A DNA stretch of 44,794 nucleotides from Yersinia artesiana (GTDB lineage Bacteria > Pseudomonadota > Gammaproteobacteria > Enterobacterales > Enterobacteriaceae): contig NZ_CACVAD010000038.1 of assembly GCF_902726545.1 (NCBI RefSeq), positions 1 through 44,794 on the forward strand, written 5' to 3'. Each line of letters opens with the position of its first letter. Position 1 is the stretch's first letter. Shown one piece after another: positions 18,393 through 39,787 of this stretch. Under the pieces are notes generated by a model, which saw nothing but the letters and a program-made list of their open reading frames with translations, searched no databases and was not told where the DNA came from. The translations under genes and the position numbers were made by a program.

Positions 18393-18559
18393 GAAGTTAA
18401 TGACAAAGTGCCCGTATCGGTGAAAACAGGCAGATCGTAAAGACGCCGTAAACCCTTCCCTGGGGGCTCGAGCCGCGCCTTCCCTGGCGCGGACGCTTTA
18501 CTCTTCTCCCTGTCCTCACCTTGCAAGATCGCGTCGTTGGAGTTTGTCAGCAGTCTGAA
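18393..18559 (+). repeat. YPAL-like 167-bp palindromic repeat, copy 1
   Basis: The element starts four bases after the rlmB stop. It aligns without gaps over its whole length to the element at 39038-39204, with about 15 differences (roughly 91% identity). It can fold into a long imperfect hairpin: TGACAAA near the left end against TTTGTCA near the right, 18419-18430 against CCTGTCCTCACC, GTAAAG against CTTTAC, and a terminal CCGCGCC/GGCGCGG hairpin (18473-18479 with 18486-18492). There is no ORF. The length and palindromy resemble the Yersinia YPAL repeats; that name is from memory. The right end runs directly into the rlmB terminator. The spacer between rlmB and aidB (361 bases) holds this repeat, the terminator and the aidB leader. 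Confidence 0.8.
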
Positions 18560-18590
18560 GCCAACATTTCCGGATGTTGGCTTTTTGTTT
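18558..18590 (+). terminator. Rho-independent terminator of nsrR-rnr-rlmB
   Basis: The 10-bp stem AAGCCAACAT/ATGTTGGCTT (18558-18567 with 18574-18583) has a six-base loop and is followed by TTTGTTTTTTA. The palindromic repeat now separates it from rlmB, so the repeat is part of the transcript. Confidence 0.9.
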
Positions 18591-22337: not shown

Positions 22338-22375
22338 TACGCGTCATTTTTCAGCCGCACACAAATACGTTCCTT

Positions 22376-22410
22376 GCCTCCATGGGCCGCGGTTGACCCT
22401 ATCAGGAGGC
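22376..22410 (+). promoter_or_regulatory. S6:S18 ribosomal protein leader motif
   Basis: GCCTCC (22376-22381) pairs with GGAGGC (22405-22410), and inside it GGG pairs with CCC, leaving an exposed CCG in the loop or bulge. This is the known arrangement in rpsF leaders bound by the S6:S18 complex, which mimics its 16S rRNA site and represses the operon. The stem ends about 27 bases before the rpsF ATG. Confidence 0.7.
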
Positions 22411-22437
22411 TGAATAATCCGTAAGGAGCAATAATCG

Positions 22438-22830
22438 ATGCGTCATTACGAAATCGTTTTTATGGTCCATCCTGACCAAAGCGAACAGGTTCCGGGCATG
22501 ATCGAGCGCTATAGTGCAACTATCACTAATGCTGCTGGTACGATCCACCGTCTGGAAGACTGGGGCCGCCGTCAACTGGCTTACCCGATCAATAAACTGC
22601 ATAAAGCTCACTACGTTCTGCTGAACGTTGAAGCGCCGCAGGAAGCGATCGATGAGCTGGAAACAAACTTCCGCTTCAACGACGCCGTTATCCGTAGCAT
22701 GGTTATGCGCGTTAAGCACGCGGTAACTGAAGCATCACCAATGGTTAAAGCGAAAGACGAACGCCGTGAGCGTCACGACTTCGCGTCAGAAGCCAATGAT
22801 GATTCTGAAGCTGGGGATTCTGAAGAGTAA
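22438..22830 (+). CDS. rpsF: 30S ribosomal protein S6
   Basis: S6 binds the central domain of 16S rRNA together with S18. The 130-residue protein has the RRM-like S6 fold with [19 protein letters not shown] at the N-terminus, [20 protein letters not shown] and [20 protein letters not shown]. The tail is acidic, with several Asp/Glu residues, as in enterobacteria where RimK adds glutamates. AAGGAG lies 10 bases before the ATG. It is the first gene of rpsF-priB-rpsR-rplI. Confidence 0.98.
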
Positions 22831-26243: not shown

Positions 26244-26268
26244 AAAGGGCGACATGATGTCGCCCTTT
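26244..26268 (+). terminator. Terminator-like hairpin after fklB
   Basis: The 11-bp perfect stem (26244-26254 with 26258-26268), rich in GC, has a TGA loop. The stem ends in TTT but is followed by GGTTAATG, so the T-run is short. The same sequence that follows is the left end of the 167-bp repeats. Confidence 0.75.
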
Positions 26269-26269
26269 G

Positions 26270-26295
26270 GTTAATGACAAATAGTTAATGACAAA
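26270..26295 (+). repeat. Duplicated 12-bp terminus of the palindromic repeat (possible remnant)
   Basis: GTTAATGACAAA occurs at 26270-26281 and again at 26284-26295, two bases apart. The same 12 bases form the left end of both complete 167-bp elements (from 18396 and 39041). The second copy runs into ACTGCTGA, which also occurs, inverted, near the right end of the complete elements. As with those, it abuts a terminator hairpin. I infer a remnant or footprint; no internal part of the element is present. Confidence 0.5.
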
Positions 26296-26352
26296 CTGCT
26301 GATAGCTCTGTGAGTGAAGGAGTTACCGTCAATCTGAGCGCTTTGCCTGAGA

Positions 26353-38640: not shown

Positions 38641-39003
38641 ATGCGAATTATTGTCTACGGTAGTTTACGGCGCAAGCAAGGTAACAGTCACTGGATGACG
38701 GACGCCCAGTTGTTGGGCGAACATGACCTGGAAGGCTTTGATATGTACAACTTAGGTCATTATCCGGCAGTGGTTCCCGGAGATGGCACTGTGCATTGTG
38801 AAGTTTATCGGATTAACTCATCTATTATGAATGAGTTAGATGAACTGAAAAGTAATACCAAGGATTATCGGCGTGAATTGATCCAGACGCCTTACGGCAG
38901 TGCCTGGATATATCTTTACCGTTTACCGGTTGAAGGATTACCACGGATTTACAGTGGTGATTGGCTTAAGCGCCATGAAGAAAATGATAAGCCGCAAAGC
39001 TAG
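38641..39003 (+). CDS. ytfP: Gamma-glutamylcyclotransferase-like protein YtfP
   Basis: This 120-residue protein has the GGCT/BtrG fold, with the N-terminal MRIIVYGSLRRKQGNS nucleotide-like loop, the FDMYNLGHYPAVVPG segment and the GEVYRIN-type VHCEVYRINS strand. The acidic residue expected in the cyclotransferase site may be in ELDELKSNTKDYRRE, but activity is unproven in E. coli too. It starts two bases behind tamB, so the three genes form an operon. Its terminator appears to have been split by a palindromic repeat. Confidence 0.9.
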   Translation: MRIIVYGSLRRKQGNSHWMTDAQLLGEHDLEGFDMYNLGHYPAVVPGDGTVHCEVYRINSSIMNELDELKSNTKDYRRELIQTPYGSAWIYLYRLPVEGLPRIYSGDWLKRHEENDKPQS

Positions 39004-39010
39004 ATAAGCA

Positions 39011-39037
39011 AAAAAACACCGCACAATGGCGGTGTTT
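39011..39037 (+). terminator. Left half of a split terminator behind ytfP
   Basis: AACACCGC and GCGGTGTT form an 8-bp stem (39015-39022 with 39029-39036) around ACAATG, preceded by an A-run but followed by only three T and then GAGG. The same 23 bases recur at 39203-39225. In the minus direction the A-run gives a T-run, so this copy could still stop transcripts from ppa. Confidence 0.75.
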
Positions 39038-39204
39038 GAGGTTAATGACAAAGTGCCTGTAGTGGTGAAGACAGGCAGATCGTAAAGACGCCGTAAACCC
39101 ATCCCTGGGGGCTCGAGCCGCGCCGTCCTTGGCGCGGACGCTTTACTCTTCTACCTGCCTTCACCTTGCAAGATCGAGTCCTTAGGGTTTGTCAGCAGTC
39201 TGAA
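39038..39204 (+). repeat. YPAL-like 167-bp palindromic repeat, copy 2
   Basis: This is the second complete copy of the element seen at 18393. It has the same orientation and the same length, at about 91% identity. Its main stem pairs 39064-39075 with 39154-39165 with one mismatch; GTAAAG (39082-39087) pairs with CTTTAC (39141-39146), and CCGCGCC/GGCGCGG (39118-39124 with 39131-39137) closes the tip. It is flanked by 23-bp perfect direct repeats, each a complete terminator hairpin. With the two hairpins it fills the 256-base gap between ytfP and ppa. There is no ORF. Confidence 0.82.
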
Positions 39205-39227
39205 CACCGCACAATGGCGGTGTTTTT
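39203..39227 (+). terminator. Right half of the split terminator (between ytfP and ppa)
   Basis: The same 8-bp stem as at 39015 (39203-39210 with 39217-39224), here followed by TTTTT and without the upstream A-run. It acts on plus-strand transcripts from ytfP that have read through the repeat. Confidence 0.85.
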
Positions 39228-39259
39228 GCTATGTATTTTTTGTTATATAAAACAGAAAA

Positions 39260-39787
39260 TTACTTCTTAGCGCGTTCGAAAGAGGACAGGATTTCGGCTT
39301 TAGCGGCAGCGGCATCTTCCCAACCGTCAACTTTCACCCATTTGCCCGTTTCCAGATCTTTGTAATGCTCAAAGAAGTGCTTGATCTGAGCTTTCAGCAG
39401 CTCTGGCAGATCTTGCACGTCCTTAACGTGATCGTATTCTTTGGTCAGTTTGCTGTGTGGAACCGCGACCAGCTTGGCATCTTCGCCTGCTTCGTCAGTC
39501 ATTTTCAACACGCCAACTGGGCGGCAACGAATCACTGAGCCTGGCTGCAACGGATATGGCGTTGGTACCAGCACATCAACCGGGTCCCCATCTAATGACA
39601 AGGTATTGTTGATGTAACCGTAGTTGCACGGATAAAACATCGCAGTAGACATGAAGCGGTCTACAAACAGAGATCCAGTCTCTTTATCGATTTCGTATTT
39701 GATCGGATCCGCGTTTGCCGGGATTTCGATCACAACATAGATATCTTCTGGCAGGTCTTTACCTGCGGGTACTTGGTTCAAGCTCAT
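39260..39787 (-). CDS. ppa: Inorganic pyrophosphatase
   Basis: Ppa is the essential family I soluble pyrophosphatase that hydrolyses PPi to two phosphates and drives biosynthetic reactions forward. The 175-residue protein has the metal-binding motif DGDPVDVLV, with [16 protein letters not shown]-like strands at the start ([10 protein letters not shown]), the active-site FYPCNYGYI segment and [23 protein letters not shown] precedes the ATG on the minus strand. It is a single-gene unit, convergent with ytfP. Confidence 0.97.

Follow-up and report, generated by a model that had tools for sequence, protein, structure and literature searches.

Insertion of a YPAL/RU-2 element into one bidirectional terminator hairpin shared by ytfP and ppa in Yersinia artesiana

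The palindromic element between the ytfP-like gene and ppa is a copy of the Yersinia palindromic sequence YPAL/RU-2, and the comparison with related genomes showed that it was inserted into a single bidirectional terminator hairpin between these genes. The initial annotation of the window, i.e. the whole stretch of 44,794 bp that was analysed, had proposed that the insertion took place in one terminator, composed of A-run, hairpin and T-run, and duplicated the hairpin as a whole. This history was supported by single hairpins at all 22 resolved unfilled sites between ytfP and ppa and in 29 of 33 empty-site comparisons elsewhere. Both the observation and, in outline, its interpretation were correct; the element itself belongs to a known kind. 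As the best explanation for the insertion pattern we favor, with a probability of roughly 0.55, that YPAL is moved in trans by a putative end-recognising enzyme with a short stagger, which would cut across extruded terminator hairpins. The features of the locus and the related features of the window are as follows.

38641-39003, plus strand: ytfP-like gene of the GGACT family, upstream neighbour (open reading frame; Pfam PF06094, E 2.6e-26)
39010-39016: A-run of the original bidirectional terminator (from the sequence; the same A-run precedes the single hairpin in the G006 empty site)
39015-39037: left copy of the duplicated terminator hairpin, 23 bp (minus-strand terminator-like site at 39037-39014)
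39038-39202, plus strand: YPAL/RU-2 element, 165 bp (own-genome matches; Rfam RF02770)
39038-39053, plus strand: left end of the element, GAGGTTAATGACAAAG, common to other bodies, putative recognition site
39082-39146, minus strand: core, a stem capped by two hairpins with loops at 39101-39106 and 39125-39130
39188-39202, plus strand: right end of the element, TTTGTCAGCAGTCTG, common to other bodies, putative recognition site
39203-39225: right copy of the duplicated terminator hairpin, 23 bp
39223-39227: T-run of the original terminator (from the sequence)
39260-39787, minus strand: ppa, inorganic pyrophosphatase, convergent neighbour (open reading frame; Pfam PF00719, E 9.7e-60)
18393-18557, plus strand: second YPAL copy in the window, with a terminator-like hairpin on its right side only (18558-18583)
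26244-26340, plus strand: hairpin at 26244-26268 and, next to it, a remnant whose left-end motifs (26270, 26284) resemble those of YPAL and whose body differs

The sequence AACACCGCACAATGGCGGTGTTT occurs at 39015-39037 and 39203-39225, identical at 23 of 23 positions with 188 bp from start to start, and represents the sole direct-repeat family reported within 38900-39350; by our own arithmetic, an exact 23-mer pair is expected by chance in 451 bp with a probability of about 1e-9. Between the copies lie 165 bp (39038-39202), and one flanking T may or may not belong to the element. The identical 23-bp hairpins of the initial annotation therefore stand, but its element length of 167 bp has to be corrected to 165 bp. 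As it had also stated, the A-run was kept by the left and the T-run by the right copy. The stretch 39005-39235 folds into a long hairpin (DNA parameters, z -5.81; 0 of 200 shuffles equally good), and the element has the ytfP-like gene (Pfam GGACT) and ppa (Pfam Pyrophosphatase) as convergent neighbours. Elsewhere in the window, 22354-22440 corresponds to the RpsF leader (RF02893), an ordinary ribosomal-protein leader.

The assignment to YPAL/RU-2 is based on the match of Rfam RF02770 (Ysr224) at 39038-39144 with 97.2 bits against a gathering value of 70, and on ends and core that are the same as in RU-2 as printed in the part of the report of Delihas considered here (PMC2759123). The other complete copy of the window is matched as well, at 18393-18499. 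The family covers the 5' part of YPAL; the entry described as a small RNA is therefore a dispersed mobile repeat. In the own genome (G000), 40 scored matches with identities of 81-100% were obtained from 67 first-look candidates, and a survey by similarity found YPAL in 21 of 25 genomes of the genus, with no match in G001, G008, G013 and G016. In the sections of PMC2847712 consulted, YPAL is described as abundant in all surveyed Yersinia genomes except Y. ruckeri. The searched phage records gave no match, and among the matches listed for plasmid records at most 54% of the element was covered, around the core. In one contig classed as viral (L121, IMGVR_UViG_2724679354_000001), a YPAL is flanked by copies of an 18-bp hairpin, AGGCCACACAGGTGGCCT.

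Like ERIC/IRU/RU-1, the element is a miniature palindromic mobile repeat of enterobacteria, but it lacks the 127-bp length, the 5'-TA-3' termini and the 7-bp terminal inverted repeats of that family (PMC2229807) and ends with GAGG and CTG. In contrast, it shares with YPAL/RU-2, as far as described in the parts of PMC2229807 and PMC2759123 considered, the sequence, the size of about 167 bp, the internal inverted repeats, the absence of 5'-TA-3' ends, the variable target duplications spanning or adjoining dyads, and the occurrence of empty and filled sites. No difference from YPAL/RU-2 was found at this locus, and 165 bp fits the family range of 165-168 bp. Section 11 of PMC2229807 gives YPAL target duplications of 3-26 bp, with targets that span or adjoin dyads, and judges recent mobility by empty versus filled sites. 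Hence, the core of the finding, long duplications over dyads, is already reported for YPAL, and the mobility that the initial annotation regarded as unusual is not special to this window. In the published accounts examined, as far as their consulted parts go, the two-class duplication lengths, the ends common to other bodies and the core found across Gammaproteobacteria, all presented below, are absent. The family goes back to De Gregorio (2006) and Delihas (2007), and the terminator-like targets of YPAL are reportedly a possible subject of the former work.

Among the 24 other genus members, the ytfP-ppa site was unfilled in 22, filled in G012 and without resolution in G020, and each of the 22 unfilled sites carried a single copy of the hairpin. 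Thirty other insertions were probed in G006, G012 and G018 (10 loci in G018), 28 of which gave 64 comparisons: 33 empty, 19 with YPAL and 12 with another insert. Within the 33 empty ones, one hairpin was present in 29 and two in 0; none was recognised in 2, and 2 were ambiguous. A pre-existing double target hairpin was thus seen in 0 of 22 and 0 of 33 cases, and we regard it as hardly conceivable that the two hairpin copies came first, with the element being a spacer or an assembly artefact. Double terminators do occur, since 10 of the 22 unfilled relatives (counted by eye) have a second hairpin before ppa, but it has another sequence and is not a copy of the target hairpin; moreover, the own-genome copies reside in many unrelated hairpins, and G012 carries an element at the same site. 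In G012, the flanks at this site are 97-99% identical to the window but the element only 92%, below the 95% match of other G012 copies to the window element. This relation may point to a separate insertion event at that hairpin; gene conversion is also possible. In the G005 spacer (L062), the orthologous terminator hairpin holds a further hairpin inserted in its loop. Finally, the 19 sites filled with YPAL in relatives showed the same orientation in 12 and the opposite in 7 cases.

The list of flanking duplications in the own genome comprised 39 copies, after one of the 40 that is cut by a contig end had been dropped. It bears out the suspected association with hairpins for most copies: a clear duplication of 15-26 bp (median 20) was found in 29 of 39 and was absent in 10. 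The centre of the hairpin deviates from the centre of the duplication by at most 0.5 bp in 22, at most 1 bp in 26 and at most 2 bp in 27 of these 29, and the six outermost symmetric positions show a pairing of 0.71 in register compared to 0.17-0.34 at shifts of 1-8 bp. By a stricter test that allowed no gaps, the 38 own copies contained 17 long duplications and 1 short one, and the 27 copies from relatives contained 12 long ones (14-25 bp) and 1 short one; the remaining copies did not pass. Mismatched flank pairs, used as control, were called long in 0 and 7 of 1000. The duplication covers just the inner part of a longer hairpin at L005 in the own genome and at L368 and L365 in G005. The neighbours of 34 classifiable own copies are convergent in 22, '++' in 7, '--' in 5 and divergent in 0 cases; mostly convergent neighbours are expected if terminators are the targets. 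Taken together, the comparison with related genomes suggests that YPAL inserts across hairpins folded out of the DNA.

Two length classes of the duplication became visible in G005. This genome has 131 first-look YPAL candidates, the most in the genus, with many equal scores, which suggests a recent burst, and its YPALs occur as 165- and 180-bp forms. We sampled about 1.2 Mb of its approximately 4.9 Mb, i.e. 20 regions around known copies and then 40 others. One (1778 bp) of 34 end pairs was spurious, leaving 33 elements, including one of 122 bp and one of 245 bp. Their duplications measure 3-9 bp in 13, 16-30 bp in 16 and 2 bp in 1 case; the script found none in 3, one of which has a 20-bp hairpin on both sides differing by an indel. 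Each of the 16 long duplications is a palindrome, 13 according to the script and 3 on visual inspection. In the short class, 7 of the 13 duplications are located on a hairpin arm and 1 near a hairpin, and 5 have no hairpin. In this analysis, 2000 mismatched pairs yielded 1 duplication of at least 15 bp. Lengths of 10-15 bp were not seen in G005, but the gap is not absolute, because 14 and 15 bp occur in other genomes. The two classes were seen in G005 alone; elsewhere the short class amounts to the 1 of 38 and 1 of 27 copies of the strict test. Duplication length rises with hairpin length (rho 0.62, p 0.01, n=16) in G005; among the own-genome copies the correlation is weak (rho 0.28, p 0.13, n=29). 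The 23-bp duplication that had been called long at the ytfP-ppa locus is therefore one case of a pattern of either 3-9 bp or the whole hairpin, as found in G005. The range in our data is 3-30 bp compared to the 3-26 bp given in the consulted section of PMC2229807.

These lengths also bear on other modes of insertion. A transposase with a naturally long and loosely fixed stagger of about 20 bp could bind the hairpin as a symmetric duplex dyad and would need no extrusion. In its favor, most own-genome duplications are close to 20 bp and the length correlation is weak there, but the 3-9 bp class (13 of 33 in G005) and the duplication of 30 bp at a G005 hairpin of this very length argue against it, and we consider it unlikely. 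Still somewhat less probable appears a sequence of two steps, in which an insertion with a short duplication at the hairpin foot is followed by duplication of the hairpin through replication slippage, template switching or recombination. Insertions with a short duplication at a 5' or 3' hairpin foot do exist (7 of 13 short cases in G005), but with 16 long versus 13 short duplications in the apparent burst, the long ones symmetric on the dyad, the second step would need to be frequent and exact. An RNA-mediated insertion by target-primed reverse transcription would produce duplications of variable length and would suit an element matching a described sRNA family. It is highly improbable in view of both orientations in the same hairpins, the lack of an orientation bias toward genes (7 '++' and 5 '--' copies) and the two length classes instead of a spread.

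According to the preferred short-stagger reading, the candidate enzyme would move elements with YPAL ends in trans and probably recognise these ends. It may nick the two strands a few bases apart, with a preference for DNA at or across a folded-out hairpin, i.e. a cruciform or four-way junction. Away from hairpins, or at the edge of one, the duplication would measure 3-9 bp; with an extruded hairpin between the nicks, gap repair would copy the whole hairpin and give about 14-30 bp, so that both length classes could result from one rule. A terminator would remain on either side of the element, and termination for the convergent genes need not be lost. The single-hairpin empty sites, the centring on the dyad, the two classes and the length correlation in G005, both orientations and the convergent neighbours speak for the extrusion model. 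Against it stand that no enzyme was found, the weak correlation in the own genome, the two classes in one genome, the duplications of the inner hairpin part and the cases without clear duplication.

The recognition of the ends is likely, because different bodies share them as well as some of the hairpin sites. A body with GTGAAGGGGTTACCGCACC and CCCCAACGGCAC fills L002, L010 and L015 in G012 and L039 in G006, and it also occurs with both YPAL-like ends in G012 and G005; a third body with YPAL right ends was found in G012. Other miniature bodies of about 100-145 bp with YPAL-like ends are located in terminator hairpins at L305 of G012 and at L313, L320, L423 and L428, and some hairpins filled by other bodies hold YPAL in relatives. 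The remnant at 26270 of the window, which had been listed as a further terminator neighbour, does adjoin a hairpin (26244-26268), but it is not YPAL proper; it is a piece of another body with YPAL-like ends and resembles, when compared by eye, the GTGAAGGGGTTACCGCACC/CCCCAACGGCAC body.

A REP-type transposase had been proposed as one candidate for the mobilising enzyme. The Y1 transposase domain (PF01797; IS200/IS605, REP/RAYT kind) was not found in G000, a draft of 111 contigs, and is also absent from G006, G010, G015, G017 and G024; each of these six genomes has at least 29 scored YPAL matches. Seven of 25 genus genomes are positive for PF01797, and G005 has one Y1 gene. To our knowledge, Y1 elements do not make target duplications, whereas the element has one. 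An autonomous partner was sought in the complete genome G012 among the best 100 of 160 left-end and the best 100 of 150 right-end matches, a set in which ends with mismatches are represented in part. Among the matches listed, three end pairs about 1.5 kb apart are YPALs interrupted by an IS110/IS1111-type transposase gene (349 aa, Pfam DEDD_Tnp_IS110) that exists in 8 near-identical copies in G012. Five of them are located in hairpin 2 of the YPAL core (junction ..CAAGG/AT) and 3 outside YPAL. No near-identical copies were detected in G000 and G006 at E 1e-60, and distant relatives occur in 5 of 25 genomes, G012 included. This transposase was rejected as mobiliser, because no genome but G012 has near-identical copies and because 3 of these 8 are not in YPAL; apparently it belongs to an IS for which YPAL is a preferred target.

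Furthermore, 20 G012 regions with unmatched ends were inspected. The long end pairs in L318 (G012) and L408 (G005, 1778 bp) were rejected as autonomous elements, as they held ordinary genes. At L424 of G005, open frames of 141 and 77 aa, for which no Pfam match was obtained, lie in a stretch that ends with a YPAL-type right end; a degenerate YPAL-like left end lies about 0.7 kb upstream, and the two flanking hairpins differ. Within the approximately 1.2 Mb of 4.9 Mb of G005 no mobilising enzyme was found, a sample in which a single-copy gene may be missed. G160, from another genus of the family, has few good ends with counts near the controls.

Several known systems share single features with the element. 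IS621, IS1397 and ISKpn1 have palindromic target sites as well, but they are tied to particular repeat families and leave a short duplication or none, whereas the element duplicates unrelated terminator hairpins as a whole. Insertion sequences of the IS1202 group also produce long target duplications, of 24-29 bp; one publication on them concerns, by the opening of its abstract, dif/pdif targets, unlike the terminator hairpins here. Group IIC introns likewise use terminator hairpins as targets, but, unlike the element, they do not duplicate the target, and they either encode a reverse transcriptase or depend on one.

The core of the element leads beyond YPAL. Its loops read AGGGAT and AAGGAC on the minus strand of the window element, and both fit ANGGAN. 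In the part of PMC7652899 considered, RsmE is described to bind the hexaloop ANGGAN, with A and GGA contacted and N variable, and the CsrA SELEX consensus is given as RUACARGGAUGU. The shared core emerged from weak RF02770 matches, which were obtained in 27 of 295 genomes of the order (above the cut-off in 4) and in 0 of 14 controls. The core pattern CGCCGTRAATACNTCCNTGTAGGCTC was present in at least 119 stretches (L121-L240). Among the matches listed, 79 of 80 titles refer to organisms we take to be Gammaproteobacteria and 1 presumably to an unassigned Proteobacteria bin. Core and second hairpin recur in dispersed palindromes with lineage-specific stems. Hairpin 1 is fixed by the search pattern and therefore provides no independent evidence. 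The region of hairpin 2 is not fixed by it, and in 116 distinct matches with enough flank it contains TCC in 110 and the plus-strand CNTCCNTG in 84; the hairpin is formed in 114 of 116, with 92 distinct 5' stems and a mean arm-pairing score of 47.3 compared to 23.9 for swapped arms.

Wobble pairs lend slight support to the minus strand (56 elements versus 34 for plus, p 0.03), but the orientation of the core relative to genes (17 '++' and 9 '--', p 0.17) does not agree with this lean, and because the strand evidence is mixed, the CsrA reading stays a lead. The minus strand resembles CsrA/RsmE-binding RNAs of the CsrB/RsmZ type in its two hairpins with ANGGAN loops, but the core belongs to a dispersed mobile repeat with two putative sites and not to a dedicated regulatory RNA gene. 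Rfam at gathering level named no family at the core of 20 other core loci, and the titles and abstract openings of the literature searched gave no description of the core or of two-class duplications; to that extent the element class found across Gammaproteobacteria is unnamed. These core elements were rejected as hairpin duplicators, since flanking repeats above the 99% control level were found in just 8 of 108 matches, all exceeded by the control maximum of 56, and one of the 8 is the YPAL in the viral contig. Hairpin duplication is hence not supported as a property of core elements outside the YPAL type. It is a tentative idea, and we hold it rather doubtful, that YPAL represents one branch of a Gammaproteobacteria-wide element class whose paired ANGGAN hairpins on the minus strand would bind CsrA/RsmA, with mobile YPAL ends that would insert across extruded terminator hairpins.

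Of these findings, the two classes of duplication and the conserved core merit further work. What mobilises YPAL and what causes the length variation is not answered in the consulted parts of the published accounts examined, and the two-class pattern provides a testable rule, namely a short stagger plus the hairpin if it is extruded. If true, this rule would mean that folded-out hairpins are natural targets of transposition and leave their footprint in the duplications, and a genome with an apparent burst such as G005 is the place to seek the enzyme. If the CsrA reading were true as well, bursts of transposition would seed CsrA sites near the 3' ends of many genes with the terminators kept. 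The core with its CsrA-type loops, if functional, would then define a mobile repeat class tied to a global regulator across Gammaproteobacteria.
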